The notes beneath the pieces are model-generated. The model saw only the letters and a list, made by a program, of their open reading frames with translations, searched no databases and was not told the DNA's origin. Shown here one piece after another: positions 16,258-50,965 of a stretch of DNA of 64,000 bases. A program made the position numbers and the translations under genes. Within the stretch, counting starts at the first letter, position 1; the number at the start of each line of letters is the position of its first letter. The stretch is from Turritopsis dohrnii (taxonomy: Eukaryota; Cnidaria; Hydrozoa; Anthoathecata; Oceaniidae). Location of the stretch: the NCBI GenBank assembly GCA_027922465.2, contig BQMF02000011.1:248001-312000 (forward strand). The letters are read 5' to 3'.

Positions 16258-16502
16258 TGTAAGTATGGTGCCCTATCGTTGCCACAAGAAAAAAACAGCA
16301 AAAACATATAGAAGAATTAAAAAGAGCGAAAAAAAAGTAAAGAAAATGAAAACAAAAAAATGAATAACTAAATAATAATGTAATTAAAAAACATTACGTT
16401 AAATAAAAAAATTGAAAAAAAAATTCTCGTGGCCCATCGTTGCCATTGCCATTTCTCGATTACCGGCGATTTCTTTCCAGAGAATGCACAAAATAAATAA
16501 AG

Positions 16503-18037
16503 ATGGCGACGAAGATACGCAACGCTGCATGGAAAACTGACGATGCCTTAAAAAAGGCCATAGAATCTTATCTGAAACGAAATTATCTTAGAGCAGAAAT
16601 GCTAGATTACTTGAAAAGGGACTTCAGTCATTATTCCTGGAGTTTGCGAACCTTGGACCGAAGAATGAGGCATTTCGATCTGTATTACACTGACAAGAAC
16701 GTATCTGTGGAAGATGTGAAAGATGTTATTAAGAAAGAGTTTAAGGGGCCTGGTGTTTTACTTGGTTACCGTGCTATGCATCAGAAAGTAAGGCAAGTGT
16801 ATGATATGCGTGTACCACGAGCTGTTGTCCACGCAGCTATGTTTGAAGAAAATCCTGCAGTATTAGAAGGACGGTTACCATGTTTCAAAAAGAAAGTGAG
16901 GAAAGGCTCCTATGTATCCCCAGGACCGAACTGGGTACATTCTCTTGACGGACACGACAAGCTGATGGGGTTCCAGAATAGTACCTTCCCTGCTGCTGTT
17001 TACGGTAGCATTGATATTTGCAGTCGTAAAATCATGTGGCTGAAAGTATGGAGTAGCAACAGTGATCCGCTAATTATTGGCAGGTTTTACCTGGAACACT
17101 TGTTTGAAACTAAAACTATCGCAAGACATATTCGTGTAGACAGAGGCTCTGAAACCATAATAATGGGTGCTATTCATGCGTATCTTCATCGGAATAACAA
17201 AAACGAAGATCCTACTGAAACTATTATTTTTGGTCCATCCACTTCCAACCAGGTTAGATTAAGATTGCTTTGAAATTCACTCCTCTAATCAACTATTTGT
17301 TTATTTCACCATCATGTCCAATACTGATAGAATTTAACCTTTAAGATTATTTTTAAAGATTGAAAGGTGGTGGAAAGACCTTCATGAAAGGCTGGAAAAA
17401 CACTTCAAAGTGAAGCTTGCTTATTTAAAGGGAAATGGCTACTATGATCCTGACAATGAAATTCACAGGTATTTCTACATAAAAACGGTGTCTTAAGTAG
17501 TTAAAATAAAAATAAAACTCTCCATAAATAAATTCATTTTTAGAAACCTCTTAGCTTATATTTTGGTGCCAATCATTCAAGAAGAAGCTGACATTTTTGT
17601 GGAGCTTTGGAACACCCACAGGATCAGAGCCCAAGATACATTGCTTCCCAATGGTGTGCCCAATCACATACATGCCTTTCCTAAAAAGTATGATTTAGAA
17701 GATTGCGGTAAGTTGAAAAGAATTCTTGGAAACCTTTTGTATCACTGTATTGTATTGGTAAAATAAAAACAGCGAAAAACAAATAAAAACAAGCTTCTTG
17801 GAAAGTAACTACGACATAAAATCAAAACTATGTAATGCATGACTTTTTTCAGGGTCAGCATTGACAATAAAAGAACTTGAAGACGCTGCAGAATCATCAG
17901 AAATCTTCACAGAAGATAACAGATTTGACTACATTCCAGCTGATGTCAGAAGAGATTGCGAAAGGTTGTTATCTGTAAACAAAGACTGTGATCTAATAAA
18001 CGGATTTATATTTTTGAAAAATAACTATAGCCCATAG
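16503..18037 (+). CDS. DDE integrase-type transposase, copy 1 (spliced)
   Basis: Exons 16503-17252, 17359-17468, 17544-17707 and 17853-18037 join in phase to 402 aa. This is the cut-and-paste enzyme of the surrounding transposon. Residues 1-70 look like a helix-turn-helix DNA-binding region (TLDRRMRHFDLYYTDKNV). Residues 138-255 form an rve-like RNase H core: D149 in WVHSLDGHDK, D213 in RVDRGSE and E252 in NQIERWWKDL, a D,D(38)E arrangement with the strong IERWW signature. Residues 80-115 (LLGYRAMHQKVRQVYDMRVPR) resemble the helical region before the core in IS3-type enzymes. The C-terminal part is extra. The reading frame is intact, so it may be active. It converges on the alpha-kinase gene, with 131 bp between the two stop codons. 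Confidence 0.85.
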
Positions 18038-18168
18038 AACATAAAAGGTTAATAAAAATGTTAATAAAACATAACATGACAGTATGTAAAATTACTTTTT
18101 GAAACAAACAGAAGAAAGGAACTAAAACATGTGAAGTGCTTCCTAATTAAAGTGTTCACAGAGAACTT

Positions 18169-19482
18169 TTAAATGTCAATGTTCAATTTCATCTCTTTGC
18201 ACCAATCATTGCATTTGTGTTCTGAAAAGAAATTGCTTATTGCTTGCGTAGAGCAATTTCCCATACAAAAATATATATTATTTTCCTCATCTTTTAATTG
18301 GATTGATGCAATTTCTGGGTCGAACAACATGTACTTGCATCCTTGTAGATCTACCACCATAAACTGATTTCCAGAGGAAACATATGTGTAATGAGCAAAT
18401 GTTTCTGCCTTCTGGACTACCTCAGAAATTTCATTTGATATTTTTCCATCGTTGTTAACATATTTAGCAAAATCTCCATCAATGTATTTTTCAATTGTAA
18501 TAAATTTACTTTCCTTGTCAACAGTATACTTCCCAAATAACAACTTTGTAAATTCGAAAGTTTCACCAAAATTACTTGGAATTTCATTTCTAAATTTTAA
18601 AGCAAAATTTCTTGCAAGGCTATGCATTTGCACTACTTTTCTGGTGTGTTCTTCCAGTGAGTTAAACATATCGCTTATTGATTCCAATATTTCACAGTCC
18701 TTGTAAGTCTTAACCACATATCTTCCAAACAATCCTGAAATGCCTGTTGCATGGAACACATCTCGAAATCCCCCACTTGCGAATGGTTCTCTTTCCACAG
18801 AAAATTGACCTTGAAATGGCTCCAACCAATTTTGTGTAATAACTGAAAATTGTTCAATATGCACAGATATGATGTCTTTCTTTGGTTCAATTAACTGCCC
18901 AAATTTTAACATTTTACTAAGTGGCACAGATGCTGCACAGAAACTTGATTTAAAATTAACAGGAGTTAATTCAGAATCAGATTTTCTTTTTAAACCATGT
19001 GAAATTGCTCTGGTAGTGGTAACCGTGCTACTCATTACTTTGCAGCTTTTGTTCTCTTTTCCGCTACGTCTTTCTTTCTCATGGTGAGGAGGAGGAGAAC
19101 CATACTTTTTATCAATAAATCTAATATGCAACTGGTTGAAATTTTTGATTTGTGTGACATCTGTAAAAGATGGACCTCTCTCACCTGCTAGTATGTCACA
19201 TTCCATGCCATATCCAACTTCAAAATGATCTTCGCATGCTAATTTTATGTTTTCCATGGTAAGTTCTCTGTCGAATTTCACCATGGTTAGTGGACCAATT
19301 CGACTATACTTCTGGCATTTTCCTTCTACATTTGCAGAAAGTCGTTGCACGGTTAAATACTCCATGTTCAAACTTGTTGGTTTAGTTTTCTTATTAAGGC
19401 GTTTTTCTTTAACTTTATTGAGAAACTTCTTGAAATCATCTTTTTTATCAGCCGCCATGCTTAACCTTTGGTGTACCCACAT
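18169..19482 (-). CDS. Alpha-type protein kinase carried by transposon, copy 1
   Basis: A single-exon frame of 437 codons. An internal Met at codon 9 (MAADKK, 19458) has the better start context (A at -3, G at +4), giving 429 aa. The C-terminal half is an alpha-kinase domain, the atypical kinase fold of eEF2K, TRPM7 and Dictyostelium MHCK/VwkA. It shows the Gly-rich ASGGFRDVFHATG loop (about 234-246), the catalytic Lys in YVVKTYK, an IEKYIDGDFAKY segment, VVDLQGCKYMLFDPEI (about 376-391), and the zinc-site tail GNCSTQAISNFFSEHKCNDW ending in a second Cys (408-428). The N-terminal half has a basic start and then a region with LTMENIKLACEDHFEVGYG; its fold is unknown to me. All key residues are present, so activity is plausible. 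It lies wholly inside the transposon termini, opposite the integrase. Confidence 0.87.
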   Translation of the reverse strand: MWVHQRLSMAADKKDDFKKFLNKVKEKRLNKKTKPTSLNMEYLTVQRLSANVEGKCQKYSRIGPLTMVKFDRELTMENIKLACEDHFEVGYGMECDILAGERGPSFTDVTQIKNFNQLHIRFIDKKYGSPPPHHEKERRSGKENKSCKVMSSTVTTTRAISHGLKRKSDSELTPVNFKSSFCAASVPLSKMLKFGQLIEPKKDIISVHIEQFSVITQNWLEPFQGQFSVEREPFASGGFRDVFHATGISGLFGRYVVKTYKDCEILESISDMFNSLEEHTRKVVQMHSLARNFALKFRNEIPSNFGETFEFTKLLFGKYTVDKESKFITIEKYIDGDFAKYVNNDGKISNEISEVVQKAETFAHYTYVSSGNQFMVVDLQGCKYMLFDPEIASIQLKDEENNIYFCMGNCSTQAISNFFSEHKCNDWCKEMKLNIDI

Positions 19483-19925
19483 TGAATGATATTATAAACC
19501 ATGCTTGTCACCAACATTGAAAATTTACGGTAGCCGTGTGGCAATGGCAAAGATAGGCCACGGGATTTTTTCGGTTTTTTAAATTTTTTTATTAAAAAAT
19601 TTTTTTTTGTTATTTTTTTTTATAATCATAGATTTTTTCTGAATGTTTTTGGTTTTTTTCTTGTGGCAACGATGGGCCACCATATGTAAGTTCCATCCCC
19701 TAGCACTTTGGTGACAAATAAAGTTAAATTTGACTGATAAAACTAAAAGAAATAGAAAAGTAAAGAAAATGAAAACAAAAAAATGAATAACTAAATAATA
19801 ATGTAATTAAAAAACATTACGTTAAATAAAAAAATTGAAAAAAAAATTCTCGTGGCCCATCGTTGCCATTGCCATTTCTCGATTACCGGCGATTTCTTTC
19901 CAGAGAATGCACAAAATAAATAAAG

Positions 19926-21459
19926 ATGGCGACGAAGATACGCAACGCTGCATGGAAAACTGACGATGCCTTAAAAAAGGCCATAGAATCTTATCTGAAA
20001 CGAAATTATCTTAGAGCAGAAATGCTAGATTACTTGAAAAGGGACTTCAGTCATTATTCCTGGAGTTTGCGAACCTTGGACCGAAGAATGAGGCATTTCG
20101 ATCTGTATTACACTGACAAGAACGTATCTGTGGAAGATGTGAAAGATGTTATTAAGAAAGAGTTTAAGGGGCCTGGTGTTTTACTTGGTTACCGTGCTAT
20201 GCATCAGAAAGTAAGGCAAGTGTATGATATGCGTGTACCACGAGCTGTTGTCCACGCAGCTATGTTTGAAGAAAATCCTGCAGTATTAGAAGGACGGTTA
20301 CCATGTTTCAAAAAGAAAGTGAGGAAAGGCTCCTATGTATCCCCAGGACCGAACTGGGTACATTCTCTTGACGGACACGACAAGCTGATGGGGTTCCAGA
20401 ATAGTACCTTCCCTGCTGCTGTTTACGGTAGCATTGATATTTGCAGTCGTAAAATCATGTGGCTGAAAGTATGGAGTAGCAACAGTGATCCGCTAATTAT
20501 TGGCAGGTTTTACCTGGAACACTTGTTTGAAACTAAAACTATCGCAAGACATATTCGTGTAGACAGAGGCTCTGAAACCATAATAATGGGTGCTATTCAT
20601 GCGTATCTTCATCGGAATAACAAAAACGAAGATCCTACTGAAACTATTATTTTTGGTCCATCCACTTCCAACCAGGTTAGATTAAGATTGCTTTGAAATT
20701 CACTCCTCTAATCAACTATTTGTTTATTTCACCATCATGTCCAATACTGATAGAATTTAACCTTTAAGATTATTTTTAAAGATTGAAAGGTGGTGGAAAG
20801 ACCTTCATGAAAGGCTGGAAAAACACTTCAAAGTGAAGCTTGCTTATTTAAAGGGAAATGGCTACTATGATCCTGACAATGAAATTCACAGGTATTTCTA
20901 CATAAAAACGGTGTCTTAAGTAGTTAAAATAAAAATAAAACTCTCCATAAATAAATTCATTTTTAGAAACCTCTTAGCTTATATTTTGGTGCCAATCATT
21001 CAAGAAGAAGCTGACATTTTTGTGGAGCTTTGGAACACCCACAGGATCAGAGCCCAAGATACATTGCTTCCCAATGGTGTGCCCAATCACATACATGCCT
21101 TTCCTAAAAAGTATGATTTAGAAGATTGCGGTAAGTTGAAAAGAATTCTTGGAAACCTTTTGTATCACTGTATTGTATTGGTAAAATAAAAACAGCGAAA
21201 AACAAATAAAAACAAGCTTCTTGGAAAGTAACTACGACATAAAATCAAAACTATGTAATGCATGACTTTTTCAGGGTCAGCATTGACAATAAAAGAACTT
21301 GAAGACGCTGCAGAATCATCAGAAATCTTCACAGAAGATAACAGATTTGACTACATTCCAGCTGATGTCAGAAGAGATTGCGAAAGGTTGTTATCTGTAA
21401 ACAAAGACTGTGATCTAATAAACGGATTTATATTTTTGAAAAATAACTATAGCCCATAG
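19926..21459 (+). CDS. DDE integrase-type transposase, copy 2
   Basis: Exons 19926-20675, 20782-20891, 20967-21130 and 21275-21459 encode the same 402 aa as copy 1. The only difference seen is the shorter T tract at the last acceptor, which keeps a usable polypyrimidine-AG. The element around it has lost its outer left terminus, so this copy may supply enzyme in trans but is probably less mobile itself. Confidence 0.84.
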
Positions 21460-21590
21460 AACATAAAAGGTTAATAAAAATGTTAATAAAACATAACATG
21501 ACAGTATGTAAAATTACTTTTTGAAACAAACAGAAGAAAGGAACTAAAACATGTGAAGTGCTTCCTAATTAAAGTGTTCACAGAGAACTT

Positions 21591-22904
21591 TTAAATGTCA
21601 ATGTTCAATTTCATCTCTTTGCACCAATCATTGCATTTGTGTTCTGAAAAGAAATTGCTTATTGCTTGCGTAGAGCAATTTCCCATACAAAAATATATAT
21701 TATTTTCCTCATCTTTTAATTGGATTGATGCAATTTCTGGGTCGAACAACATGTACTTGCATCCTTGTAGATCTACCACCATAAACTGATTTCCAGAGGA
21801 AACATATGTGTAATGAGCAAATGTTTCTGCCTTCTGGACTACCTCAGAAATTTCATTTGATATTTTTCCATCGTTGTTAACATATTTAGCAAAATCTCCA
21901 TCAATGTATTTTTCAATTGTAATAAATTTACTTTCCTTGTCAACAGTATACTTCCCAAATAACAACTTTGTAAATTCGAAAGTTTCACCAAAATTACTTG
22001 GAATTTCATTTCTAAATTTTAAAGCAAAATTTCTTGCAAGGCTATGCATTTGCACTACTTTTCTGGTGTGTTCTTCCAGTGAGTTAAACATATCGCTTAT
22101 TGATTCCAATATTTCACAGTCCTTGTAAGTCTTAACCACATATCTTCCAAACAATCCTGAAATGCCTGTTGCATGGAACACATCTCGAAATCCCCCACTT
22201 GCGAATGGTTCTCTTTCCACAGAAAATTGACCTTGAAATGGCTCCAACCAATTTTGTGTAATAACTGAAAATTGTTCAATATGCACAGATATGATGTCTT
22301 TCTTTGGTTCAATTAACTGCCCAAATTTTAACATTTTACTAAGTGGCACAGATGCTGCACAGAAACTTGATTTAAAATTAACAGGAGTTAATTCAGAATC
22401 AGATTTTCTTTTTAAACCATGTGAAATTGCTCTGGTAGTGGTAACCGTGCTACTCATTACTTTGCAGCTTTTGTTCTCTTTTCCGCTACGTCTTTCTTTC
22501 TCATGGTGAGGAGGAGGAGAACCATACTTTTTATCAATAAATCTAATATGCAACTGGTTGAAATTTTTGATTTGTGTGACATCTGTAAAAGATGGACCTC
22601 TCTCACCTGCTAGTATGTCACATTCCATGCCATATCCAACTTCAAAATGATCTTCGCATGCTAATTTTATGTTTTCCATGGTAAGTTCTCTGTCGAATTT
22701 CACCATGGTTAGTGGACCAATTCGACTATACTTCTGGCATTTTCCTTCTACATTTGCAGAAAGTCGTTGCACGGTTAAATACTCCATGTTCAAACTTGTT
22801 GGTTTAGTTTTCTTATTAAGGCGTTTTTCTTTAACTTTATTGAGAAACTTCTTGAAATCATCTTTTTTATCAGCCGCCATGCTTAACCTTTGGTGTACCC
22901 ACAT
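21591..22904 (-). CDS. Alpha-type protein kinase carried by transposon, copy 2
   Basis: Identical 437-codon frame to copy 1, with the same preferred start 24 bp downstream at 22880. All alpha-kinase motifs (Gly loop, VKTYK, VDLQG, zinc-site tail) are intact. It again converges with an integrase gene, showing that the pair was duplicated as one block. Confidence 0.86.
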   Translation of the reverse strand: MWVHQRLSMAADKKDDFKKFLNKVKEKRLNKKTKPTSLNMEYLTVQRLSANVEGKCQKYSRIGPLTMVKFDRELTMENIKLACEDHFEVGYGMECDILAGERGPSFTDVTQIKNFNQLHIRFIDKKYGSPPPHHEKERRSGKENKSCKVMSSTVTTTRAISHGLKRKSDSELTPVNFKSSFCAASVPLSKMLKFGQLIEPKKDIISVHIEQFSVITQNWLEPFQGQFSVEREPFASGGFRDVFHATGISGLFGRYVVKTYKDCEILESISDMFNSLEEHTRKVVQMHSLARNFALKFRNEIPSNFGETFEFTKLLFGKYTVDKESKFITIEKYIDGDFAKYVNNDGKISNEISEVVQKAETFAHYTYVSSGNQFMVVDLQGCKYMLFDPEIASIQLKDEENNIYFCMGNCSTQAISNFFSEHKCNDWCKEMKLNIDI

Positions 22905-23177
22905 TGAATGATATTATAAACCATGCTTGTCACCAACATTGAAAATTTACGGTAGCCGTGTGGCAATGGCAAAGATAGGCCACGGGATTTTTTCGGTTTT
23001 TTAAATTTTTTTATTAAAAAATTTTTTTTTGTTATTTTTTTTTATAATCATAGATTTTTTCTGAATGTTTTTGGTTTTTTTCTTGTGGCAACGATGGGCC
23101 ACCATATGTAAGTTCCATCCCCTAGCACTTTGGTGACAAATAAAGTTAAATTTGACTGATAAAACTAAAAGAAATAG

Positions 23178-24127
23178 AGTTTTACACATGACGTGTTAAT
23201 CGACCATTAAAAATTTAATTACATTTTCCTTATTTTTTCAAAAATCACTTTTTCATTTTTCACAAAAATATACTAGCCGAAAGAACTTGAAAATGGCTTT
23301 CCATTGATGTAAAAACTATTTTGAAATTCGGTATATTTATTTGAAAAAAAAAACAGTTTTGAAATTTCCGTTTCCAACATCCTGAAACACACTGTATAAA
23401 CACTTGACATCATTAAAAACTGCGCCGCCGCTAGAAAATTAGTTTTCCCGTACGCTCCCTTTACGCGCAATGGACTAATTTTTTATTTTTCATAATTGTG
23501 TATAAAGGAAAGTTGGTGTGCCAATTAACATCTTAAATAATAGATGAACGGAATAATTTGTGAAAAATTATACCTTTGTTCTACAAAGAAAAACAAGCAA
23601 ACGAAGAAGGTTTCACAAATAAGCTATATTTATCTTAGCAAAGAAGAAGCCTGGGCTTAATTTCTATATCGGAAACATACTCAGGACACAATAAAACAAT
23701 ATGCTTTTTAGAAGAGGAAAAAGACCAGAAAAAAAAACAAGATATTTTCTTTTCATTTCTTTTATTTAGTAAGTTTTCTGTGAACCTATATATGGTTTCA
23801 TGAAAATCTATTGTTTTATTTTTAAGCAATGAAAATAGTTTCACTTTATGAAAAATAGATGTTTTTTCCCCTCTCTCTTCATTAGTGTTAGATTTTGTAA
23901 TTGTTCTCGTTTTTATAATGTAAGTTGTTAGTCAGTGGTGAAGTTACCTGTATTTATGTTAAGAGCCAGAAATCACATATTTTTTTTATACAACTGTGTT
24001 ATCAAATACCTCAACTATTAATTTTTGGATAACGAAATATGATTATTCGTCCAATTTGTAGGGGCAACTATATACAAGATCCAGCATTATAAAGGATTGT
24101 ATTTCTTGTGTGAATTTTTGATTTGGC
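23178..24127. other. Spacer, no gene recognised
   Basis: This is the right flank of the duplicated transposon block. The DNA is AT-rich and the short ORFs are low-complexity. I see nothing further in it. Confidence 0.45.
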
Positions 24128-32659: not shown

Positions 32660-34216
32660 ATGGTATCATTCAATATCATAAAAACTAATGCGCTGATTTT
32701 ATCTGACGTCAAATTGATAATAGAAATAGTTACAATTCATTTTGCGTATCAGCAAGTGATTAAGTTAAAGATGTTTCGCTACTCAATATTTCGAAATATC
32801 AAAAGGAATTTGAAGGCAGGTGATGAAAAAGAAAAAAGTAACACTAACTCTCTTTTAAATGAAACACCAACCAAAATGCCGGCCAATGACCGTTCCCTAT
32901 TGCTAACACGTGGTTACGTATTGTCAAATTATAAGCTTGGAGAAGGCAGCTATTCTAAAGTGAAGAAGGCATATTCAAAATACCGTGATGAAGATGTTGC
33001 AGTTAAAATCATCAACAGGAAAATAGCACCACAAGACTTCCTGGATTTATTTTTACCAAGAGAACTTGAAGTCATCGGTCATTTGGACCATCCTAACATT
33101 TGCAAGTTCTATGAGGTTTTTGATACTGGAGACAAAGTATATGTTTTCATGGAACACGCAAACGGAGGAGATCTTCTTGATTATATTCAAAAAAATAAAT
33201 ACATCAGTGAAGATGCCGCGAAGAACTTATTCCGACAGGTTTGTTGAAAATTTAATTGAGAATGTGAAGAAGTTCTAACGGACAGAGCGTAGAGTTCAGT
33301 ATACAAAATGAGCGTTTCATTGGTTTACTTTGGCCGACTTCAGTTTCAATGTCCCAGCTTCGCTGAATAAACTCTTTGTGTTTTGAGGATTCTAAGTTAC
33401 CAACTGACGTGGGTGAAGGGAACTTTTATGCTAGCATTACATTCGATTCAAACCTGAGGAATGCAACCTGCTCTCTATATATATAATTCGAACAAATTTC
33501 ATGGTCCAATTCCCTATTATTTCTTATGAACTTCGACTTTCCATAATTCGAACGTTTTTTTCGATCCTTTGAGTGTTCGAATTACAGAAAGTTTACTTAT
33601 TTACTTTTAGATCGTCCAAGCCATCAAATACTTGCACGAACGCAATATATTACACCGTGATCTGAAATGTGAAAATATTCTATTGACAAATAACTTGAAG
33701 CCGCTATTAACAGATTTCGGGTTTGCCAAATATGCACCAGAGATCACAGACCTTAACAAAACATACTGCGGCAGTTCTGCCTATGCTCCAATTGAAATAT
33801 TAAAAGGTAAAAATATTTCAATGTCTGTAAGTTTCATATATAGTGACATTGTCATAGGCAATATCACAATTTTCAACGATTCGCAAATGCTTTAGATTGA
33901 CACTAAATGTTTTCCATATTTCTATGTAGGTATTCCGTATGATGGACAGAGTTCAGAGGTCTGGAGTTTAGGTTGTATTTTATACATTATGACAACAGGA
34001 ACAATGCCATTCGATGATAGCAATAAAGCTGAACAAATCAAGCAAATGGAAAGGGGACCAACATTTTATAAAACAAAACAACAAATCACTAAAGCTTTAC
34101 GCTCACTCATTGTTAGCATGTTAGAAATAAATGCAAAAAGTCGCGTAACAGTGACAGCAATAGAGCAACATCCTTGGTTAGCACAGCGACAAAAGCAAAG
34201 AGGCAATAACATATGA
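32660..34216 (+). CDS. TSSK-like serine/threonine protein kinase
   Basis: Exons (32660, 32771 or 32876)-33238, 33611-33806 and 33930-34216 join in phase, giving 353, 316 or 281 aa depending on the ATG. The last (MPANDRSLLLTRGYVL) sits closest to the usual kinase start. The domain is nearly the whole protein: Gly loop LGEGSYSKVKKAY, VAIK-type Lys in DVAVKIINRK, helix-C Glu in ELEVIGHLDHPNI, HRDLKCENILL, DFGFAK, EVWSLGCILYIMTTGTMPFD and a C-terminal HPWL. The overall look (LLTRGY start, CGSSAY activation lip, short lobe) fits the testis-specific serine kinase group, which acts in spermatids. The APE motif reads PIE (AYAPIEIL), an unusual Pro-to-Ile change that could weaken the lobe. Mammalian TSSKs are often intronless; this one has two introns. 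Confidence 0.83.
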
Positions 34217-35279: not shown

Positions 35280-38200
35280 CTAAAATGGTGTATCGATAAA
35301 AAGAGACAGACTGAAGCGCTCAGTCCCTTTGATAAACTTAGCAATCGATCTAAGAATTTGACGATTGGTTGCATCCTTAAACATTGGATTTCCATACAAA
35401 AGCAGTCGGACAAGAGCGTTTCTACAAAGAGGCATAAAAGGAACGTTCGCATCATGGAGGTCATTAAATAAAACAATACGTAAGTTTGAATAATTTGGGC
35501 AGTGAAGCAGGTAGTGCTCAGTAGATTCCTCCGAATTAGTACGGCACGTACAGAAAGGGTCAAGCGTATCGATGAAGTTGTGCCTGAATCTATGTGCTTT
35601 TAAGTGACTAAAGCCTACTCTTAGTCGTGTAATCAAGGTCACTCCAGGTATGTCATCTAGCCCATAGATCGAGTTGGGCATAGGTTTACGACCTTTCAAA
35701 ATCTCCCTTTTGAACATTAACAAATTTGGAAGACCCGTTAGCCCAGCGTCAAGCTTGTTCCATTCACTTATACAATAAGGAAAAAAAGAATTTCTGAAAG
35801 ATTCAACTCGACCAAACATTGGGGGTATTGCGTTGGTAGCCCTTAGAGGGTACCTTTGGGAAAAAGTCCTTGGTAATATGTCTTGTAAGTATTGAGGGGC
35901 TGTGCCATTTACAATTTTGTAAAACATGCACATTCGTCTACAGTACCTTCGGTCTGACAATGACTCGAGTCCAAGTTCATTGTATAGTTTCTCACTTGAA
36001 GTTCCACGGAAACATCCAGAAATGGCTAGAGCAGCTTGATATTGAATGGATTCAAGACGCCGGGTAAACGAGTCATTTCCAGGATTGTCGTAAATCACAT
36101 CACCGTAATCAAGATGTGGCCTAATAAAAGATTTATATATTGTCAAAAGAGTGTCTCTTGGCAGATTACCTCGCAGTCGCTTTAACATTCCTATGTCGCG
36201 ATTGACTTTAGATATCTTCTCATTCAGATGATGACGAAAGTTTAGCTCTTTGTCTAAGTAAAGGCCAAGATGTTTTTGAACATCTTCGCAAGCAACAGGT
36301 ACACCGTTGAAATAAATATCATAAGTTGTGGCAACACTTATCCTTTTCGAAAATAAGACCTCAACGGCTTGTTTAGATGGATCCGGATTAAAAGACATTT
36401 TCCACTGACGAGCCCACTCACTCACTCGACTAAGATCAGCATTTAGTTCCCTAGCTGAGACAGCAGCATTTAGTACCAAAGAAAATAGTGAAGTGTCATC
36501 AGCAAAAATATCGACTGTCGATTCCATATTTTCGGGGAGGTCATTTATGTATATTAGGAAAAGCAATGGTCCGAGAATCGAGCCTTGGGGTACACCTGCT
36601 ATGATTTGCTGCCATTCAGATTCTTTGCCATTAAGGACAACCCTTTGAAACCTAATAGACAGGAAGTCCGTCAACAATTTCAAAAGTTTGCCAGTAACAC
36701 CGTAAGTTTCCAATTTAAAAACAAGTCCTTCATGCCAAACCCTATCGAAAGCTTTTGAGATATCAAGGAAAACCCCTCGAGTGTCTAGCGGTGGGTTGAG
36801 GTTAAAGCCTTGAAAGATATTATGCGTTATTGAAAGTAACTGAGATATACAGGAATCATTCTTGCGAAAGCCAGATTGACTTGAGGAGAAAAGCTTGTGC
36901 TGCTCAAAGTAACTATAAATCTCGTCATATATGCATTTTTCAAAGATTTTACCTAAGACAGGCAGCAAAGATACTGGTCTATAGTTTTTCACCAATGATT
37001 TGTCTCCCTTTTTGTGACAAGGAGTAAGATTACCCCTTTTCCAATGGCTAGGATAAATACCACTATCATGAGATAACTGAAATATGTCAATGAGTGGCTT
37101 TACTAAAGATTTATCACACATTTTGACCATTCGGGCAGATATCTGATCCCAGCCATGGGATTTGTTCACGTCAAGAGACCTGATGATGTTAAGCACCTTA
37201 TCCGGTTCGAATATAATGTCTTCCAGTCGATGATCTGTCAGAAAATATGGGGCAGGTAAGTTACTATCAGTTTGAACTGGGGTGCATTGATCAGCATAAA
37301 AATCGTTGAAAATATTTGCCTTTTCAAGTGGATCAGTTATGACCTTGTTTTCATGGTGGATGGGGGGAATTTGGGATGTTTTGCGTTTGTTTAAGAATCG
37401 ATTTAAGATAGACCAGTATTTCTTCGAGCCAATGTTAGGGTCATTCAGGGATTTAGCAAGGTTTGCGTAGTAAATGTCTTTTACCTGTTTAATTGCAACT
37501 TTACAACGAAATTTGATTTCTCGCAGCTGCTCGAAGTCAGAGACTTTGCGTCCATGTTTAACATATCGTCGATATATCTTGGCTTTCTCAAGAATCATGC
37601 CTTTAATCTCGGGTGTCATCCAAGGTGCATCTTTGTCTCTAATGGTTACAATTTTGTTGGGAACGTAATTACTGAAAATATTGCGGATACAATCCGATAG
37701 GAACTCAACCCGCTCACTAACGCCAAGATTCAGAAATATGTTGTTCCACTCAATGGCATTGATGGCATTACGAATAGCAGTTGTATCAGCTTTTGCATAA
37801 TCCCATATTCGCCTCTGGTACGCCGGAGGGAATGGGATTTGGAAATTAACAGTCGCAAATATCACTTGGTGATGACATCTTGGATATAATGACGGGTAAA
37901 CCCCTGAATTTAAAGTATATCCGTTAGCCGATGTAAAAATAAGATCAATACATGATGCAGAATTTGGCAGTAAATGGGTGGGCTCATCAATAATCTGGGA
38001 TAGACCATTTTGCAGGGTTAGGTCTGACATTGCAAGTCCTTGCGCTGTTGTTGTATCACCATTCCACCAGTTCGCATTTCTGACGTTAAAATCACCCAAG
38101 TAGAGAGAACAATCAGGCGAGCAACTATTGATGTTAACAATAGTGTCTTGAAATTTGTCCATAAAAGTAGAAAACTCATCTGCAGATTGACTAGGAGAAC

Positions 38201-38825
38201 GGTATAGAACAGTAAGGTAAAGCGTCTTGGAACCAAATCTAAGTGCACACACTACACACTCAGATAGGGTTGTTAGGTCAGACCTGCGAACTAGTGGTAT
38301 GTGCTCCTTAAAATAAATACAAACACCGCCTCGTTTTGTGTCGGCTGGATGATCACAACGTAACATGTTATACCCTGTCAGAAGAAGTCGTGGGTCATCA
38401 TCTGAAATGGAAGAGTTTAAAAACGTTTCCGAAATAGAAAAAATATCAAACTTTTGAATTGACAAAAATGTGGCGATATGAGAAAGCTTCGCGAAGTCAT
38501 CAACCGAAAGACCGTTTAGGTTCCAATGACAGACCGAGAGTGACTTGGATTTACTATTTTGCGGTCCAGGATTACGCTCGACATCACCAGATAAAAGAAT
38601 GAGGCAGAAAACGAACAATAAGTGTAAAATTTGGGGTATAAGAAAAAGCCTCAATACACCTAATAACAAAAATCGGACAGCACGCTTGCGCAATTCAGCA
38701 CAGTGAAGAAGTAAAAAACATGTGGTAAAATCAAAACTACCCACGACTGCCCTATACTGCTCAATTGCTATCCCCATGATGGAGTGCAGAAGGTGACCCT
38801 CCAAACACGAACAGTCCCATTTCAC
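35280..38825 (-). CDS. LINE ORF2: signal/2A leader, endonuclease, reverse transcriptase
   Basis: 1181 aa. Residues about 52-78 are strongly hydrophobic (FLLLGVLRLFLIPQILHLLF) and lead directly into GDVERNPGP (80-88), a 2A-like motif where ribosomes skip the G87-P88 bond. The APE endonuclease follows (CHWNLNGLS, ISETFL, YLGDFNVRN, CIDLIFTS). The reverse transcriptase has GWDQISARMV, YRPVSLLPVLGKIFEKCIY, FLDISKAFDRVWHEGL, AGVPQGSILGPLLFLIYIND and the catalytic FADD near residues 774-777. The C-terminus has a Cys/His cluster (CTCRTNSEESTEHYLLHCP). The product would nick target DNA and copy the element's RNA into it. With 2A skipping, the endonuclease/RT is freed from its leader; a fraction that fails to skip could be exocytic, as proposed for other 2A/signal elements. 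No frame breaks are seen. Confidence 0.93.
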   Translation of the reverse strand: MKWDCSCLEGHLLHSIMGIAIEQYRAVVGSFDFTTCFLLLHCAELRKRAVRFLLLGVLRLFLIPQILHLLFVFCLILLSGDVERNPGPQNSKSKSLSVCHWNLNGLSVDDFAKLSHIATFLSIQKFDIFSISETFLNSSISDDDPRLLLTGYNMLRCDHPADTKRGGVCIYFKEHIPLVRRSDLTTLSECVVCALRFGSKTLYLTVLYRSPSQSADEFSTFMDKFQDTIVNINSCSPDCSLYLGDFNVRNANWWNGDTTTAQGLAMSDLTLQNGLSQIIDEPTHLLPNSASCIDLIFTSANGYTLNSGVYPSLYPRCHHQVIFATVNFQIPFPPAYQRRIWDYAKADTTAIRNAINAIEWNNIFLNLGVSERVEFLSDCIRNIFSNYVPNKIVTIRDKDAPWMTPEIKGMILEKAKIYRRYVKHGRKVSDFEQLREIKFRCKVAIKQVKDIYYANLAKSLNDPNIGSKKYWSILNRFLNKRKTSQIPPIHHENKVITDPLEKANIFNDFYADQCTPVQTDSNLPAPYFLTDHRLEDIIFEPDKVLNIIRSLDVNKSHGWDQISARMVKMCDKSLVKPLIDIFQLSHDSGIYPSHWKRGNLTPCHKKGDKSLVKNYRPVSLLPVLGKIFEKCIYDEIYSYFEQHKLFSSSQSGFRKNDSCISQLLSITHNIFQGFNLNPPLDTRGVFLDISKAFDRVWHEGLVFKLETYGVTGKLLKLLTDFLSIRFQRVVLNGKESEWQQIIAGVPQGSILGPLLFLIYINDLPENMESTVDIFADDTSLFSLVLNAAVSARELNADLSRVSEWARQWKMSFNPDPSKQAVEVLFSKRISVATTYDIYFNGVPVACEDVQKHLGLYLDKELNFRHHLNEKISKVNRDIGMLKRLRGNLPRDTLLTIYKSFIRPHLDYGDVIYDNPGNDSFTRRLESIQYQAALAISGCFRGTSSEKLYNELGLESLSDRRYCRRMCMFYKIVNGTAPQYLQDILPRTFSQRYPLRATNAIPPMFGRVESFRNSFFPYCISEWNKLDAGLTGLPNLLMFKREILKGRKPMPNSIYGLDDIPGVTLITRLRVGFSHLKAHRFRHNFIDTLDPFCTCRTNSEESTEHYLLHCPNYSNLRIVLFNDLHDANVPFMPLCRNALVRLLLYGNPMFKDATNRQILRSIAKFIKGTERFSLSLFIDTPF

Positions 38826-38973
38826 GTATTAGAGAAAGAATCCATGCATCCATAAAATTATAAACAAAGAAATAAATAACAAATAGCACACAAATTACCT
38901 CGTGACCACGAGAAATTATCATAACAATCTATGACAATTTATCTATTGTAAAGCACAACAAATTGGTGATAAA

Positions 38974-39699
38974 TTAAGCAATTAATGAGCTAAACTCATT
39001 CTCTGTGTTAAAATATTCAATGGAATCGTCACTGAACTTGATACCCAGGGAACAATTAATGTCAGCAAAAACAAATTTAACATCTTTATTACCTTCAATT
39101 ACTCCCTTGGCAGTCTTTAACAGTTCATATCTTCTTTTCGTCAGATCAAGACTTACAGAAAAAGGTTGCATACCTGGTTTCTTTACGCCATTTACGTAAG
39201 ACTTCGGTCTTGCTGAATATAGCTTTTTTCTAGCTTCCCAGTTTTTAAACTTTACAATGATTGACTTTACTTTAACTTTCTTAACATCGTCAAATCGGGC
39301 TTTACCTATTCTATGCACACGGTCAATTTCTGCTTTATCAAACGGTAGTTTTAGCTTGCTGTAACAATTCTTGAGAACATCCATAACATCCTCTCCTTTT
39401 TCTCCAGCTTGAACGCCGTGAATGCGTAAGCAGCTACGCCGACTGTACTGTTCGTTATCGTCACATTTTATTTCTAGTTTGGCAATAACTGTTTCCTGTA
39501 TTTTTACCTTTGATTCTAACCTTTCGATTTTTTCATCCTGTTCCTTGAGTCTCTGTTCAAACCTATCGATAAGGTCGTTTTTCAGGATTGTCAGCATTTC
39601 TTCAAGTTTTGCATTAGTCACTAGTGGCTTTATAAGGTTGTCCAAATGTTGAATCATCTCTTCTGAGAAAGACATGCTCTGTGATCTTGTGGTTGGCAT
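38974..39699 (-). CDS. LINE ORF1: coiled-coil nucleic-acid-binding protein
   Basis: 241 aa. Residues about 40-85 form a heptad-rich coiled coil (RLKEQDEKIERLESKVKIQE). A compact domain with RSCLRIHGVQAGEKGEDVMD then IDRVHRIGKARF follows, resembling the RRM/C-terminal region of L1-type ORF1 proteins. Such proteins trimerise, bind the element's RNA and act as chaperones during integration. It is intact and lies 148 bp upstream of ORF2 on the same strand. Confidence 0.85.
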   Translation of the reverse strand: MPTTRSQSMSFSEEMIQHLDNLIKPLVTNAKLEEMLTILKNDLIDRFEQRLKEQDEKIERLESKVKIQETVIAKLEIKCDDNEQYSRRSCLRIHGVQAGEKGEDVMDVLKNCYSKLKLPFDKAEIDRVHRIGKARFDDVKKVKVKSIIVKFKNWEARKKLYSARPKSYVNGVKKPGMQPFSVSLDLTKRRYELLKTAKGVIEGNKDVKFVFADINCSLGIKFSDDSIEYFNTENEFSSLIA

Positions 39700-41148: not shown

Positions 41149-41625
41149 ACCGTATTCTCTCTAACTAGCGCCCCTCTCTCCAGTAAGCGCCCCTCTCTAA
41201 TAAGCGTCCCCTCTTCTAGCCAAAAAGTATTTTTATAAGCGCCCCTCTCCAATAAGCGCCCAGGCGCTTATTAGAGAGTGACTTAACATTGCTCAGAAAT
41301 TAATAAGCGCCCGGTCAGTAATTAGAACTTTGAACAAAAACCGAATATTCTGTAATAGAAACGGAAGGCTATATTTTTGTGACGTCTAAATTTAAGTTAT
41401 AAGTACAAAATCTTATTTCCGCCCGCTGCCATGAAAAATACAGTTGTTTTTACTCTTTTATATGATAAAAGCAATGCCTCGTTCACAGCTAGCACGACCA
41501 TTTCAAAATGTTTTTATAAGCGCCCTTCTCCAGTTATCGCCCCTCTCTAATAAGCGCCCTCCTAATTTCTAAAAAAAAATTTATAGGCGCCCGCGCCCGG
41601 GCGCTTTTTTGGAGAGAATACGGTA
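41149..41625. mobile_element. TIR element with repeated CTCTAATAAGCGCCC motif
   Basis: The ends are inverted: CCGTATTCTCTC at 41150 and GAGAGAATACGG ending near 41621. Inside are six or more direct and inverted copies of a CTCT(A/C)ATAAGCGCCC-like motif, including the palindrome around AATAAGCGCCCAGGCGCTTATT. No transposase is present. Its right part (from about 41513) also occurs at 43193-43305. Confidence 0.65.
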
Positions 41626-43917
41626 TATATACTAAACTTAGAAAACACAGATTTTATAAATCACGATATTTCGACAAACTATGTGTCTTTATCAAGTGTT
41701 TTATATATGTATATATATTATGTACATGATGTGACGTAATAAACAAGAGCCCAAAGCCAAAATTACATAAATATAAACCTCACCTATATCAATCTGAGAC
41801 CTAATCTGAGACATACATTCCCACCAGTGGATTATATACACTGCCAGTTCCCTCCTCCAGTCTCGTTAAAATAGATTTTTTAAAAAGGTGTGGAGCGACT
41901 GGTATTGTGTGGAAAAAATCGTTGAGTTCCGCGTGCCAGGAGAAGAGCCACCCAAAAATCGCGCTAAAATGAACATTCCATAACTTGGTATATCTTGCAC
42001 TTTGTACGAGCAATAACAATACTCAACATGGTGTACAAATTAATAGCTTTGGAAAGATTATAACAATAATGCCGATAGTCACATGAGAAAATGAAAAAGT
42101 AAAAATGGCAAATGATTGAGATGATATTGGACATTAATCAACGCTGGTAATCTTTTCAAAAAGAAATGTCAATCTGCTGGAATTGCATTAAATGATATTA
42201 CTTTTTATATACCCATTATATATTTATTATAATATTTAAATCCAATGAGACTCTGTAAAACTGCTGAATCAATCAATCAATCAATCAAAGAACTCAATCA
42301 TAATAATCATTATCATTAATAATCATTTATCATCAATAAACATCTATTTAGTTATCAAATCAGTCTAAAGATAATTGGCGCGCTATTTATTGCAATGTCA
42401 TACCCCCTAGGGGGTACGAAAGTGCAACAGTGCCAAATAATTATTGCCACAACAAATCTTCTTGTGTGTCTCTCTCAGAAACGGAAGGCTATATTTTTGT
42501 GACGTCTAAATTTAAGTTATAAGTACAAAATCTTATTTCCGCCCGCTGCCATGAAAAATACAGTTGTTTTTACTCTTTTATATGATAAAAAGCAATGCCT
42601 CGTTCACAGCTAGCACGACCATTTCAAAATCTTATTATAATAATCCGCGTTGTGCATCCCACTTTTATTTTAGAGAGTGATATATTTGTTTAATTTTTAC
42701 GGTCATCGTCCTCTTATGTGCGCGTAAAACCACGTAGATGCGAGACACTTTTTTTCACGATCATTCCAAAAGCACGTGGCATCATTTGACGTCAGTTTTT
42801 TATGATCACGGGGAATCATTGCATTGCATCCCCAATCGAACGCGACGTTTTTGGGGAAACATCTCAAGAACCAATAGGAATAACTGACGTTTTTTGGGGT
42901 CAGCGATACGGGTGATGGGGTGACGCATCATTTGGGCCTAAATTTTATTTGGTACTGCGGATATGACGTCATCGAAATCTTTGATCAGTGATATCTCCGC
43001 AACGGTTGGTCGTAGCGAAACGATCCCATACATTTTTTTGATCAGTTTTTCAAGCTCTACAACATGGTTACATTTTCGGTTTCCAATTCCTAAATTGAAA
43101 TTTTCATCACGGGGATTGTTCACGGGAAAGGCGATTTTGACCCATCCTTTTCGAAGTTAAGTTCGGTAAAAAGTTTTTACCCGGGATACTAGTGTTTTTA
43201 TAAGCGCCCTTCTCCAATTATCGCCCCTCTCTAATAAGCGCCCCCCTAAGTTCTAAAAAAAAATTTATAAGCGCCCGCGCCCGGGCGCTTTTTTGGAGAG
43301 AATACGGTATATATACTAAACTTAGAAAACACAGATTTTATAAATCACGATATTTCGACAAACTATGTGTCTTTATCAAGTGTTTTATATATGTATATAT
43401 ATTATGTACATGATGTGACGTAATAAACAAGAGCCCAAAGCCAAAATTACATAAATATAAACCTCACCTATATCAATCTGAGACCTAATCTGAGACATAC
43501 ATTCCCACCAGTGGATTATATACACTGCCAGTTCCCTCCTCCAGTCTCGCTAAAATAGATTTTTTAAAAAGGTGTGGAGCGACTGGTATTGTGTGGAAAA
43601 AATCGTTGAGTTCCGCGTGCCAGGAGAAGAGCCACCCAAAAATCGCGCTAAAATGAACATTCCATAACTTGGTATATCTTGCACTTTGTACGAGCAATAA
43701 CAATACTCAACATGGTACAAATTAATAGCTTTGGAAAGATTATAACAATAATGCCGATAGTCACATGAGAAAATGAAAAAGTAAAAATGGCAAATGATTG
43801 AGATGATATTGGACATTAATCAACGCTGGTAATCTTTTCAAAAAGAAATGTCAATCTGCTGGAATTGCATTAAATGATATTACTTTTTATAGACCCATTA
43901 TATATTTATTACAATAT

Positions 43918-45907
43918 TTAAGGGGGAACACCCCTCAAATTTTTAAAAAGACTCAAGGAAAGCAATTCATATATTGACAGATCAATGTTGATAAGTTATT
44001 CCAAAAAAAATGAAAAAATCATCAAAATGGCAGACTGTTGCTATGGTAACCACAATAAAACACAAAAACAGGTCAAAAATTGATGCTAGCCTGGAACAAA
44101 TAACTCAGCATTGCTACAACAGTTTTGTTTGAAACTTTAGCAGATACTTTCCATAATGTATACCTATGGGATGAGTGAGTTAGATTTTCAAAAAAACTTT
44201 GCAATGCGCTTCACCGCAGAGGTAAATTTTCATTATAAAATCATAGATAGATTTGATGAAGACGTCGACAATCAAAGTTTCATTTTAAAAATGTGATTCA
44301 CTCATCCCATGGCAATCAATATGGTGCACATTCTCTGAAAATTTCAAGTAAAAAGCTTGTACGGTTCTTGAAATATTTATTCCGGCAGCCAAAAAAGTTA
44401 AGTTTTGAGAAAAACGCATTTAAAGTAAAAAATACCAAAAAAGTTTAGCTTCTATGTATATATCAATTTCAAATACACTGTTCTGTGGTCAAAAACCACC
44501 AGGGACATATGTAGGTCCTTCTTCCTGATTTGTTTTGTCATTTTTCTTTAATTTTTTGCCCCGTAGTAACACTTGTCGCCTGGTTATGTTGCACTTGAAA
44601 CTTTTATACAACGATCGCTTAACTCTTTTTTCATTTATCGTTCTGCAACCTTTCAATGTAAATTTACCAGGGATCATTCCTAGTTTTTCATAAATAAGAA
44701 TGCTGGACTTCATACCAATATTAAAATGTGCGACAGCATCATAAACACCCATTTTAAGAATCCCAAGTGATGCAAATTTTGACTTCGGGATGCATTCCCA
44801 TATGCGTTTCCATCACAAGATACACCAACATATACTACACTATCTTCTGAATCTACATTAGCTCTAAGCTCTTCAGATGCATCTTCCATTGTCTCAAAAG
44901 CAACTTCCTTCACTGCAGTTTTTACTCTTTTGTTAATTTGCTGAAAATTTTTCAAAGTCATTGCTTTCGGCATATCCATCAAATGTACAAATTTTTGGAT
45001 ACCTGCATGACCATGTCCTAATGTGCGCATTGCATAAACCATCCGGTTATTAACATCATAGGATTTATATACCTATGTTGCATGTTTTTGAAGAAAAGAA
45101 TTCTTCAGCAAAGTTACAGTTTGTACAGTGGAGGAGAAGTAGAGATGCCAATCCTTGCTTCCGTGACAGTCGGTCACTCAGATACAATGACTGTGTCTCA
45201 CATTGTGGGCATAATAATAGAGAAAAAACATTGTTCAAAATGTTCATGTCCATAATTCGGTATCCTGTTATGTTATCAGTTTCTTTTGGTGTCCTTGATT
45301 CAATCGGTTGGACTTTATTGAATGAAACTGAACTTACAGTAGGTGTTAAGGGATCAACAATGGGAGCAACATCAACAACAATGTTTGCATGACTTTCTTC
45401 TGCTGCTTCTTTCTTCTTTGCTCCACAAAACCCTTTTCTCTTTTTGTACTTTCTTGTAGATTTCTTAACTCTGTCCTGTTTAGTTCCTACTGAAGGAATT
45501 TTGACAGCGTCATTGACTTTCATTTGTTCTTGATGTTTACTAGGAGGTGTTTCAAAAGTTGGCTTCATCTTGCTTTGTAACTTGTAATATAAATGAAATG
45601 TCAGGTTGAAATATGCTTTTTAGAGCGTGAAAGCAAAGTGGAAGTGAAAGTGAACCATTAAACCTAAGGGCTCCAACATCTATACGCGGGTTTTCATCAC
45701 GTTTTTGGGGCATTAAATACGTTGCTAGGGGCGTTGCTAATGTAAATAACTTTGGATGGCCTTAGTTAAAACCCCCAATACTTCAAAACTAACGTAAAAT
45801 TTTTAAAACGGTTTTCAGATTTGAAATCTGCATAAAATGTTGAACCAAAACAGCTGAAAAAAATTTTTTTGAAAAAAATGAAAATTTTGAGGGGTGTTCC
45901 CCCTTAA
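43918..45907 (-). mobile_element. Kolobok-type DNA transposon, internally deleted
   Basis: The body is 43922-45903 (1982 bp) between TTAA at 43918-43921 and 45904-45907; the duplicated unit without it (around 42237) has a single TTAA. The ends are inverted: GGGGGAACACCCCTCAAA at the left and TTTTGAGGGGTGTTCCCCC at the right. It carries pieces of a transposase on the minus strand (next entry). TTAA targets and this transposase type fit the Kolobok superfamily. Confidence 0.88.
44489..45568 (-). pseudogene. Kolobok/'mutator-like' transposase, broken
   Basis: Three minus-strand pieces. 45568-45065 has a basic N-terminus (KKSTRKYKKRKGFCG) and a C..C/C..C zinc-ribbon-like part (LLCPQCE, LLHCTNC). 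45042-44710 continues the family pattern (YAMRTLGHGHAGIQKFVHLM, then VSCDGN). 44752-44489 matches the usual C-terminus (GVYDAVAHFNIGMKSSILIY, then a basic tail with KKNDKTNQEEG). Stop and frame changes separate the pieces. The segment after VSCDG, where the remaining catalytic residues should be, is missing, so the element is non-autonomous. Confidence 0.8.
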
Positions 45908-46183
45908 ATCCAATGAGACTCTGTAAAACTGCTGAATCAATCAATCAATCAATCAAAGAACTCAATCATAATAGCTATATAATCATTATCATTAATAATC
46001 ATTTATCATCAATAAACATCTATTTCGTTATCAAATCAGTCTAAAGATAATTGGCGCACTATTTATTGCAATGTCATACCCCCTAGGGGGTACGAAAAAG
46101 TGCAACAGTGCCAAATAATTATTGCCACAACAAATCTTCTTGTGTGTCTCTCTCTTTTTTCTCTGTCTCTTGTATACCCAAGG

Positions 46184-48400: not shown

Positions 48401-50965
48401 ATGTCATCATATGATAATGAAAAAAAACCGCTGCTGCATCGAGAAATTCGAGATGATTATTACAATGGAAGCATTGGAGATTCAATTACATCAGATGACT
48501 ATAATACGTATATAAAACCTTATGCACATACAGAAACAGCAACATACTGGTTTGTAATATTCTTTCTTTTCTTTTTTTTATACCAAGCTATTTGCCAAGC
48601 CAACCTACATAAAGGATCTGATTACTCTCTTTATCTTCACATGTATTTTTGGGGTTATTTAGGTATCGCTGGTATATTTTAGCTTTATACTCATGTATTG
48701 CTGCAATGGGCAACATAGCGTGGAATACATGGGGTCCAATAGAACAATCTGCACGCACTGTGTTTGGATGGTCACGTGGAGACATTTCACTCCTATCTGA
48801 TTGGGGCGCAATAACATTTGTTCTATTTGTGTTTCCATCCTCATATATTCTGGATAGATTTGGTAAGGAAAGCATTTCTAAAGTAAACATAAAATATTGC
48901 ATCTAATGATGAATTTACATTTGTTAATTGTAGTCTATAAAATAAAGCATCTATATATGATATAAATCATTGTAATTTGGATTCAACTGACATTTTACGA
49001 TAGTTCTGTTTGGTGTGCGACACACTTTACAAAGATTTTCGATCGAAATATTGTGAATCGCTTATGTGTTTTTTTTGTTTTATACTTATAAACATAAGGT
49101 ATGGTTAACATTCTAAAGTTAATCAGCACTACTGATGATTGATGGAAATCTCTAGAATAAAGAATGTGTCACAGAAAATATTGTTGTTTTTTCTTCAATT
49201 TCGAAAAAAACTTTTGAGTTATTTGAATTCATGTTTATGTTATAAGATGTCATAATCAAAGCGATAGGACATAGTATTTAAAATGTTTGTTTACATTACA
49301 CCTGAATACATGAAGTGAGGATTTAATATGATTTCTTTTATTTTTTTTTTTTTCAGGATTACGAAAAGCTGTTTTACTGTCAACTTTCTGTCTCCTATTT
49401 GGTAGCGGTCTTCGTTGTATTTCTTCTGATGAAAAGATTGCAAAATGGTTGATACACACTGGTCAAATCTTTATTGGCTTAGGTGGCCCAATTTGCCAAT
49501 CAGCAGCAACAGCACTGTCTAGCACATGGTTTCCTCCCAAGCAACGTACCACAGCAACTGCCATAGCTTCGTTAGCCAGTTACTGTGGTACAGCTATAAG
49601 TTTTGTAATTGGACCTCAATTAGTAAGTCCAGTTACGAATTCAAAAGAAATAGACAAAGGCAAAAAAGACATAATGAGATTCATGTATATTCAGTCTGGA
49701 GTACTCGGTGGCTTAATTCTTTTAATAGTCATTTCATTTCCGCAACGGCCACCGAAACCACCAAGTGCAACCGCAGTTATGGAACGTGTTGACTTTAAAG
49801 GTGGTTTAGTAAAACTTTTCAAAAATCCACAATTTCAGCTTATAGCATTTGCTTATGGGTTGACAACTGGTGTATACAGTGCATGGTGTTCTGATCTGGC
49901 AATCAATCTCAACGCATTTAATATTGATGACAAGACTGCCGGTTGGATCGGCTTTTGGGCTGTTATAGCAGGATCTATTTCTGGAGTGTCCTTATCCTTG
50001 TAAGTTTCTCTACATAAGTTCAAAACCACTTTTCAAGTATAGGTTGGTTTACTTGAAATTAAAATCATTATCCACTTCAGCCGATTGCAAAACATTCATC
50101 CTGATTAAGTGTTGCGGAGAAGTGTTGTGACGTGTCACTGTTAGCACTGCTATGACCAGTTTTCGAGTGTCACATGTCACATCTCAATTCTTCGCTCTGA
50201 TGTGCTTTAAACACAACCTATCAGTCCATTAGGAGCCATTGACTGACTGCAAACTGGCCACCCCTCAAGTTTAAGCCATGCTATACTTATCTAGTAAGTC
50301 AACTGCTAGTTCAGGATACATGAGAAGCAAGCATTGGGCGGAAGGCCAAAGGACTTAAAACTCGCAGTTACAAGAATAAATATTTCTTATTCCTTAAATA
50401 GATGACATTTCTCCAATGTCGAGGCTTTCATTTTGGATATTGAAACATTTGAATTCAGACATCAACTGTTCATCTCGTCTTTGTTTTGTTATTTTTTAGA
50501 ATGGCAGACCGACTTGGTGCACTGAAGTTGCTAATTATCATGTTATTCATTGTAGCAACTGCTGCATTCGCTGTTTTTAGTTTGATCTGTGCAAATGTTA
50601 TACCGCACTCCATGGCATTATTTTACGTGACTTCTGTTGTTGGAGGCTTATGTTTAAATGGCTCCATCCCACTTTTCTTTGAATTAGCAGTCGAGTCGAG
50701 TTATCCGGTAGCCGAAGGAATCAATACTGGTGCCATGACTTTTTCTAACAACGTTTACTGCTTGATATTTTTATCTATTCCCTTAATTCCTGGTACTGGC
50801 ACCTCTTGGATGAACTGGTTCCTTGTTGCTAGCTGTATCTTGTGTTTACCAGTGATGATGATTTTCAAAGAACGATACAGGAGGTTAGAGATCGATCTGG
50901 TTGAAAGTGACACTGAAGGGAAACCCACAAATGTCGATGCATTGCACTATCCAGTTATTGACTAA
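48401..50965 (+). CDS. SLC49A4: SLC49A4 (DIRC2) homologue, major facilitator transporter
   Basis: Exons 48401-48549, 48663-48862, 49357-49999 and 50500-50965 join in phase to 485 aa; human SLC49A4 is about 478 aa. The N-terminus has an acidic/dileucine-type sequence (EKKPLL) before the first membrane span, as expected of a lysosomal sorting signal in this protein. Family landmarks are RWYILALYSC, the hallmark AWNTWGPIEQSAR, the loop 2-3 motif LDRFGLRKAV, FIGLGGPICQSAATALSSTW, ATAIASLASYCG, DKTAGWIGFWAVIAGSISG, MADRLGALK and a last span before RYRRLEIDLV. SLC49A4 is an electrogenic lysosomal membrane carrier, reported to export pyridoxine; here substrate is inferred only. The start is the only ATG fitting this length. 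Confidence 0.93.
50165..50372 (+). mobile_element. SINE, family S2, copy 2, inside SLC49A4 intron 3
   Basis: Shares CCTATCAGTCCATTAGGAGC, TAGTAAGTCAACTGCTAG and AAGGACTTAAAACTC with the copy at 34823-35056. The tRNA-like head is not recognisable here. Confidence 0.62.

Follow-up and report, generated by a model that had tools for sequence, protein, structure and literature searches.

Transposons of the IS3EU superfamily have TA..TA ends and a target-site duplication (TSD) that is usually 6 bp, according to an excerpt of PMC10045372, and in rust fungi they combine a 6-bp TSD with terminal inverted repeats (TIRs) of more than 30 bp and ends of the form TAYGG..CCRTA, according to excerpted passages of PMC12730594 (2025). 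In those same passages, all TET+ IS3EU families of fungi carry a TET gene between an oppositely oriented transposase and alpha-kinase. Here we describe an element at positions 16264-19684 (3,421 bp) of a window of 64,000 nucleotides from the hydrozoan Turritopsis dohrnii (GCA_027922465.2, contig BQMF02000011.1, positions 248,001 to 312,000 of the forward strand; coordinates below are those of the window), which is very probably an autonomous DNA transposon of the IS3EU superfamily residing in an animal, with an alpha-kinase as a gene of its own. The initial annotation of this locus had known of no standard description of an alpha-kinase as a transposon gene, a statement that the fungal families of PMC12730594 overturn; among the open-access papers listed, in which Repbase Reports did not appear, that report is alone in combining an alpha-kinase with IS3EU.

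Judged from its letters, the element is intact, comprising TIRs, a 6-bp TSD, a D,D(38)E integrase gene and an intact kinase gene convergent with it. It is flanked by TGTAAG at 16258-16263 and, letter for letter, at 19685-19690, and its 33-bp TIRs (left, 16264-16296, plus strand, starting TATGG; right, 19652-19684, minus strand, ending CCATA) agree at 31 of 33 positions. The 17-bp motif GTGGCCCATCGTTGCCA lies in both TIRs (at 15/17 in the left one) and is repeated subterminally in the same orientation at each end, perfectly at 16429-16445 (plus strand) and with 15/17 matching letters at 19545-19561 (minus strand). Repeated motifs at transposon ends are often transposase-binding sites, and we regard these as putative sites of that kind. 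The two genes converge with merely 131 bp between their stop codons and no TET/JBP gene between them, and the earlier description of perfect 6-bp repeats and inverted ends around two intact convergent genes is thus upheld. The TSD, the TATGG..CCATA ends, the TIR length and the alpha-kinase lying opposite the transposase are all IS3EU features, and because everything listed fits except the TET gene, the element is best placed as a new animal member of IS3EU with an alpha-kinase.

The integrase/transposase gene (16503-18037, plus strand; 402 amino acids) consists of four exons (16503-17252, 17359-17468, 17544-17707, 17853-18037) separated by three introns, all GT..AG, and carries catalytic residues D149, D213 and E252, the last two separated by 38 residues, in agreement with its first reading as a spliced D,D(38)E integrase. 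The sole model it matches is the integrase core PF24764 (E 6.4e-22), HTH_21 not being found, and an integrase profile had no match among solved structures at E 1. A protein search returned 412 matches, the best 120 of which form the analysed set; the named relatives among the matches listed are cnidarian (Exaiptasia, Dendronephthya, Clytia, Actinostola, Acropora, Porites), together with Patella and Ciona. PF24764 was found in all 20 relatives scanned for models, HTH_21 in three, IS3 in two and IS481 in one. D149 is kept in 120 of the 120 aligned relatives, D213 in 119, E252 in 84 and all three residues in 83. Exon 1 ends two codons 5' of the E252 codon, and in 31/120 relatives the open reading frame (ORF) runs beyond the motif STSNQ into V, the reading expected from an intron at the boundary that ends exon 1 here (71 of the remainder continue to the glutamate and 18 do not have STSNQ). 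Many of the relatives, though not all, thus appear to share an intron directly upstream of the catalytic glutamate.

The alpha-kinase gene (18169-19482, minus strand) encodes 437 amino acids from its first ATG and matches PF02816 at E 7.8e-37; a second ATG at 19458, giving 429 amino acids, is the probable start, and many aligned homologues begin nearby. The protein comprises a basic N-terminal helix, a putative ubiquitin-like domain of beta-grasp fold (~42-124), a variable linker (125-183) and the alpha-kinase domain (~234-433). Its predicted structure (mean predicted local distance difference test score 80.9) has TRPM7 ChaK (E 3.1e-17) and MHCK-A (E 1.4e-16) as its best structural matches in Foldseek. 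Nine catalytic and zinc-site positions are present (K258, E331, H364, D378, Q380, D388, H422, C424, C428), which by comparison with TRPM7 we take to include the ATP lysine, the catalytic D and Q, the metal D and the His/His/Cys/Cys zinc site. The initial annotation had credited the kinase with all its catalytic and zinc-site motifs, which holds for these nine residues and for the domain itself but not for what we presume to be the glycine-rich loop near the C-terminus, where the window kinase reads CMGNCS against GPANLG aligned in TRPM7. PF02816 membership nonetheless stands, since the domain model scores far above its cut-off, and an altered loop is, across the aligned sequences, usual for this kinase family: among 120 homologues G-N-L-S is the common form, with L in the fifth place in 103/110 and S in the sixth in 97/109, the window protein counted.

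Conservation was assessed over 189 homologues of the kinase, being the best 120 of 148 matches plus 69 new ones of 90 from another search, with only proteins of 0.55-1.75 times the query length admitted. The listed relatives are compact, mostly about 400 amino acids, and while most rows have no species name, those that do are cnidarian except for two weak fungal matches, from Psilocybe and Agrocybe. New here are this large kinase family, whose close relatives are cnidarian in every named case, its putative ubiquitin-like N-terminal domain and the two contig-size matches described below. The fungal kinases reached by profile, P0307 (E 1.8e-7) and P0309 (6e-4), were set aside as too distant to inform on common origin. 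All nine residues are kept in 145 of the 157 homologues that cover them fully (the other 32 are gapped somewhere). Mean identity to the window kinase is 54.5% over the ubiquitin-like domain (measurable in 169/189), 44% over the kinase domain (168/189) and 11% over the linker (134/189), so that the putative ubiquitin-like domain is the more conserved of the two domains. Taken alone, that domain matched no Pfam family, and against predicted viral proteins it gave nothing below 1e-3 in Foldseek.

Whether kinase and integrase travel together was approached by a proxy, in which relatives of the two proteins were compared for contigs of exactly equal size, the loci themselves not being read. Among clusters whose longest contig was at least 5 kb (95 kinases and 76 integrases), kinase P0065 and integrase P0204 both come from a contig of 268,778 bp, and kinase P0255 and integrase P0168 both from one of 17,739 bp; two exact matches compare with 0.022 expected when sizes of at least 5 kb are jittered by 5%. 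The first pair is closer to the window element than the second, both in the kinase (38.5% vs 35.0% identity) and in the integrase (56.6% vs 47.6% across the portion encoded by exon 1), so that the two proteins give the same order; by full-protein bit score the integrase order is reversed, because P0204 is a partial ORF. An exact match at 2,183 bp (P0082/P0194) was discarded as short, from differing sources and unable to hold both ORFs end to end, and the near-equal sizes of P0061/P0234, P0065/P0218 and P0253/P0176, not being identical, were left out of the count. Scans of viral contigs with the window kinase, the integrase alignment and the kinase alignment, and of genome contigs with the integrase and the kinase, gave no further loci, which says little because those collections are viral or prokaryotic. 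Indirect as it is, the proxy is suggestive of kinase and integrase genes that move together.

Because the kinase lies within the TIRs and TSD, keeps its catalytic residues across its family and takes part in two contig-size matches with the integrase, we read it, on this partly indirect evidence, as a gene of the transposon, as had first been proposed, and not as a host gene around which the element landed. A stationary host alpha-kinase of TRPM6/7-like or MHCK-like type would account for relatives that bear database names such as TRPM6, myosin heavy chain kinase and alpha-protein kinase 1, but is scarcely credible for a gene enclosed by TIRs that are themselves flanked by an intact TSD; the listed relatives, within the length range admitted by the search, are of the compact build noted above, and some cnidarian TRPM6 names are misannotations of kinase-only sequences, as an excerpt of PMC13143021 has it. 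Nor is it at all likely that the kinase is a functionless passenger, recently captured by one element or family. The single insertion visible in the window and a linker that varies freely are what such a passenger would leave, but it would not explain 189 listed divergent homologues of the same build that so largely keep the nine residues, the two equal-size contigs shared with the integrase, or the occurrence of an alpha-kinase gene with this orientation in the fungal TET+ IS3EU of the PMC12730594 passages.

Several points weigh against the placement and the linkage proposed here. The linkage consists of equal contig sizes, not of loci that were read, and both matches had been spotted by eye before the count was made. 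Ciona and Patella occur among the integrase matches listed and no listed kinase match is named from either, most rows being nameless; the kinase may therefore be missing from some integrase relatives. The window integrase has no match to the IS3 or IS481 models at E 0.1, and assignment to IS3EU follows from ends, TSD, gene layout and the HTH_21, IS3 and IS481 matches of a few integrase relatives, not from a tree with Repbase IS3EU. A second independent insertion was not seen within the 64-kb window. Finally, 12 of the 157 fully covering kinase homologues have another amino acid at one or two of the nine positions, and some copies of the kinase thus look inactive.

As for mechanism, the integrase would bind the 17-bp motif, of which each end offers a terminal and a subterminal copy, excise the element and join it to target cuts staggered by 6 bp; such cut-and-paste movement is expected from the integrase family and the TSD. 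The kinase would be a standing second gene of the lineage, a selected accessory protein and no chance passenger, whose ubiquitin-like domain might dock a conserved partner for phosphorylation by the alpha-kinase domain. Our favoured candidate for that partner, at a confidence approaching but not reaching an even chance, is a nuclear or chromatin factor of the host that keeps the element in check. In two-gene elements the second gene often supplies a protein that works with the transposase, and on that general precedent the kinase might instead phosphorylate the element's own integrase, tuning its activity or timing; the two putatively linked pairs, which rank alike in both proteins, would suit such a target, and we consider it somewhat less likely than a host factor, with the qualification that the most conserved part of the kinase, the ubiquitin-like domain, could equally bind a host protein. 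The higher conservation of that domain could also mean that it is paramount, for example as a decoy or adaptor in a host ubiquitin/SUMO pathway, and phosphorylation secondary, which we think improbable. Returning to the host-factor target, a broader version, in which fungal and animal IS3EU have since ancient times carried, almost as standard, a second gene for an alpha-kinase with a ubiquitin-like domain, retained because it shields the element from silencing by phosphorylating a host nuclear factor, is speculative and, in our estimation, rather unlikely as a whole.

The locus also contains a tandem second copy, in which 16334-19756 is repeated at 19757-23178 (plus strand) with a single 1-bp difference, one T in a T run (17844). 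It extends from element position 71 to the right end (23106), without the left TIR, and continues into 72 bp of right flank with the TSD. The initial annotation was right about the element and left this 3.42-kb duplication unmentioned. A second independent insertion was ruled out as its origin, because the 72-bp right flank is identical and the left TIR absent; the copy is instead a duplication in place, either real or from the assembly. The repeat unit (3,422-3,423 bp) is nearly the length of the element, for which we have no explanation beyond chance.

Elsewhere in the window, a LINE-type (long interspersed nuclear element) sequence at 35280-39699 (minus strand) has a 1,181-residue ORF with endonuclease and reverse transcriptase, preceded by a 241-residue ORF that may be its first, and a second reverse-transcriptase element at 58210-60116 (minus strand), probably damaged, has two overlapping ORFs, of which the one at 58569-60116, the only one scanned, contains RVT_1. 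An ORF at 32660-33247 (plus strand), probably an exon, covers a portion of a conventional protein kinase domain (PF00069), and two ORFs at 49449-50965 (plus strand) encode parts of a major-facilitator transporter (PF07690; the second match is under the curated cut-off). Several direct repeats of 164-731 bp and 95-99% identity occupy 41357-46154. A short ORF at 45065-45568 (minus strand) has a weak Mutator-like transposase match, also under the curated cut-off.

A conserved kinase is unusual as a transposon gene, and this one has consequences for annotation. Among cnidarian genes that bear the name TRPM6 or myosin heavy chain kinase, some probably belong to transposons and, where so derived, should be masked. 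The finding thereby offers an explanation for part, at least, of the kinase-only genes called TRPM6-like or myosin heavy chain kinase in cnidarian genomes, where an excerpt of PMC13143021 notes that the name is sometimes given to kinase-only sequences. Rusts may be a parallel case: their alpha-kinase family is described as highly expanded in a passage of PMC4469406, and PF02816 appears in a domain table on wheat rusts in PMC5295586. Were the kinase truly an ancient second gene of IS3EU, the expanded alpha-kinases of cnidarians and rusts would in large part be transposon cargo.

Compared with known proteins and elements, the window kinase has the fold and the catalytic and zinc residues of TRPM7 ChaK and Dictyostelium MHCK-A, from which it differs in its identity of about 20%, its N-terminal ubiquitin-like domain and its altered glycine-rich loop. 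The channel part of TRPM7 and the WD-repeat part of MHCK-A are both absent from it. Intons of fungi resemble the element in IS3EU descent and in encoding extra conserved proteins, but have five to six conserved proteins in all, unnamed in the passage of the meeting report PMC3520738, compared with two proteins here. Styx of Zymoseptoria is likewise IS3EU-derived, by a model that begins from a two-protein IS3EU ancestor, and has four coding sequences, with no alpha-kinase named in the passages of PMC10853768, compared with two genes in the window element. GingerRoot, as treated in excerpts of PMC10045372, shares a 6-bp TSD, mostly TA..TA ends (TA..TA or TG..CA) and an integrase-like transposase, and is not separated from IS3EU in the tree of that report; the window element's features fit GingerRoot too and do not tell it from IS3EU, but the word kinase is absent from the main text there and a kinase is present here. 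The TET+ IS3EU of fungi, in the passages of PMC12730594, differ in their fungal host and in the TET/JBP gene between the two genes, whereas our element resides in an animal without TET/JBP, and they resemble it in the DDE transposase, in the opposed alpha-kinase described for all TET+ families, and in the 6-bp TSD, the ends and the TIRs longer than 30 bp described for those of rusts.
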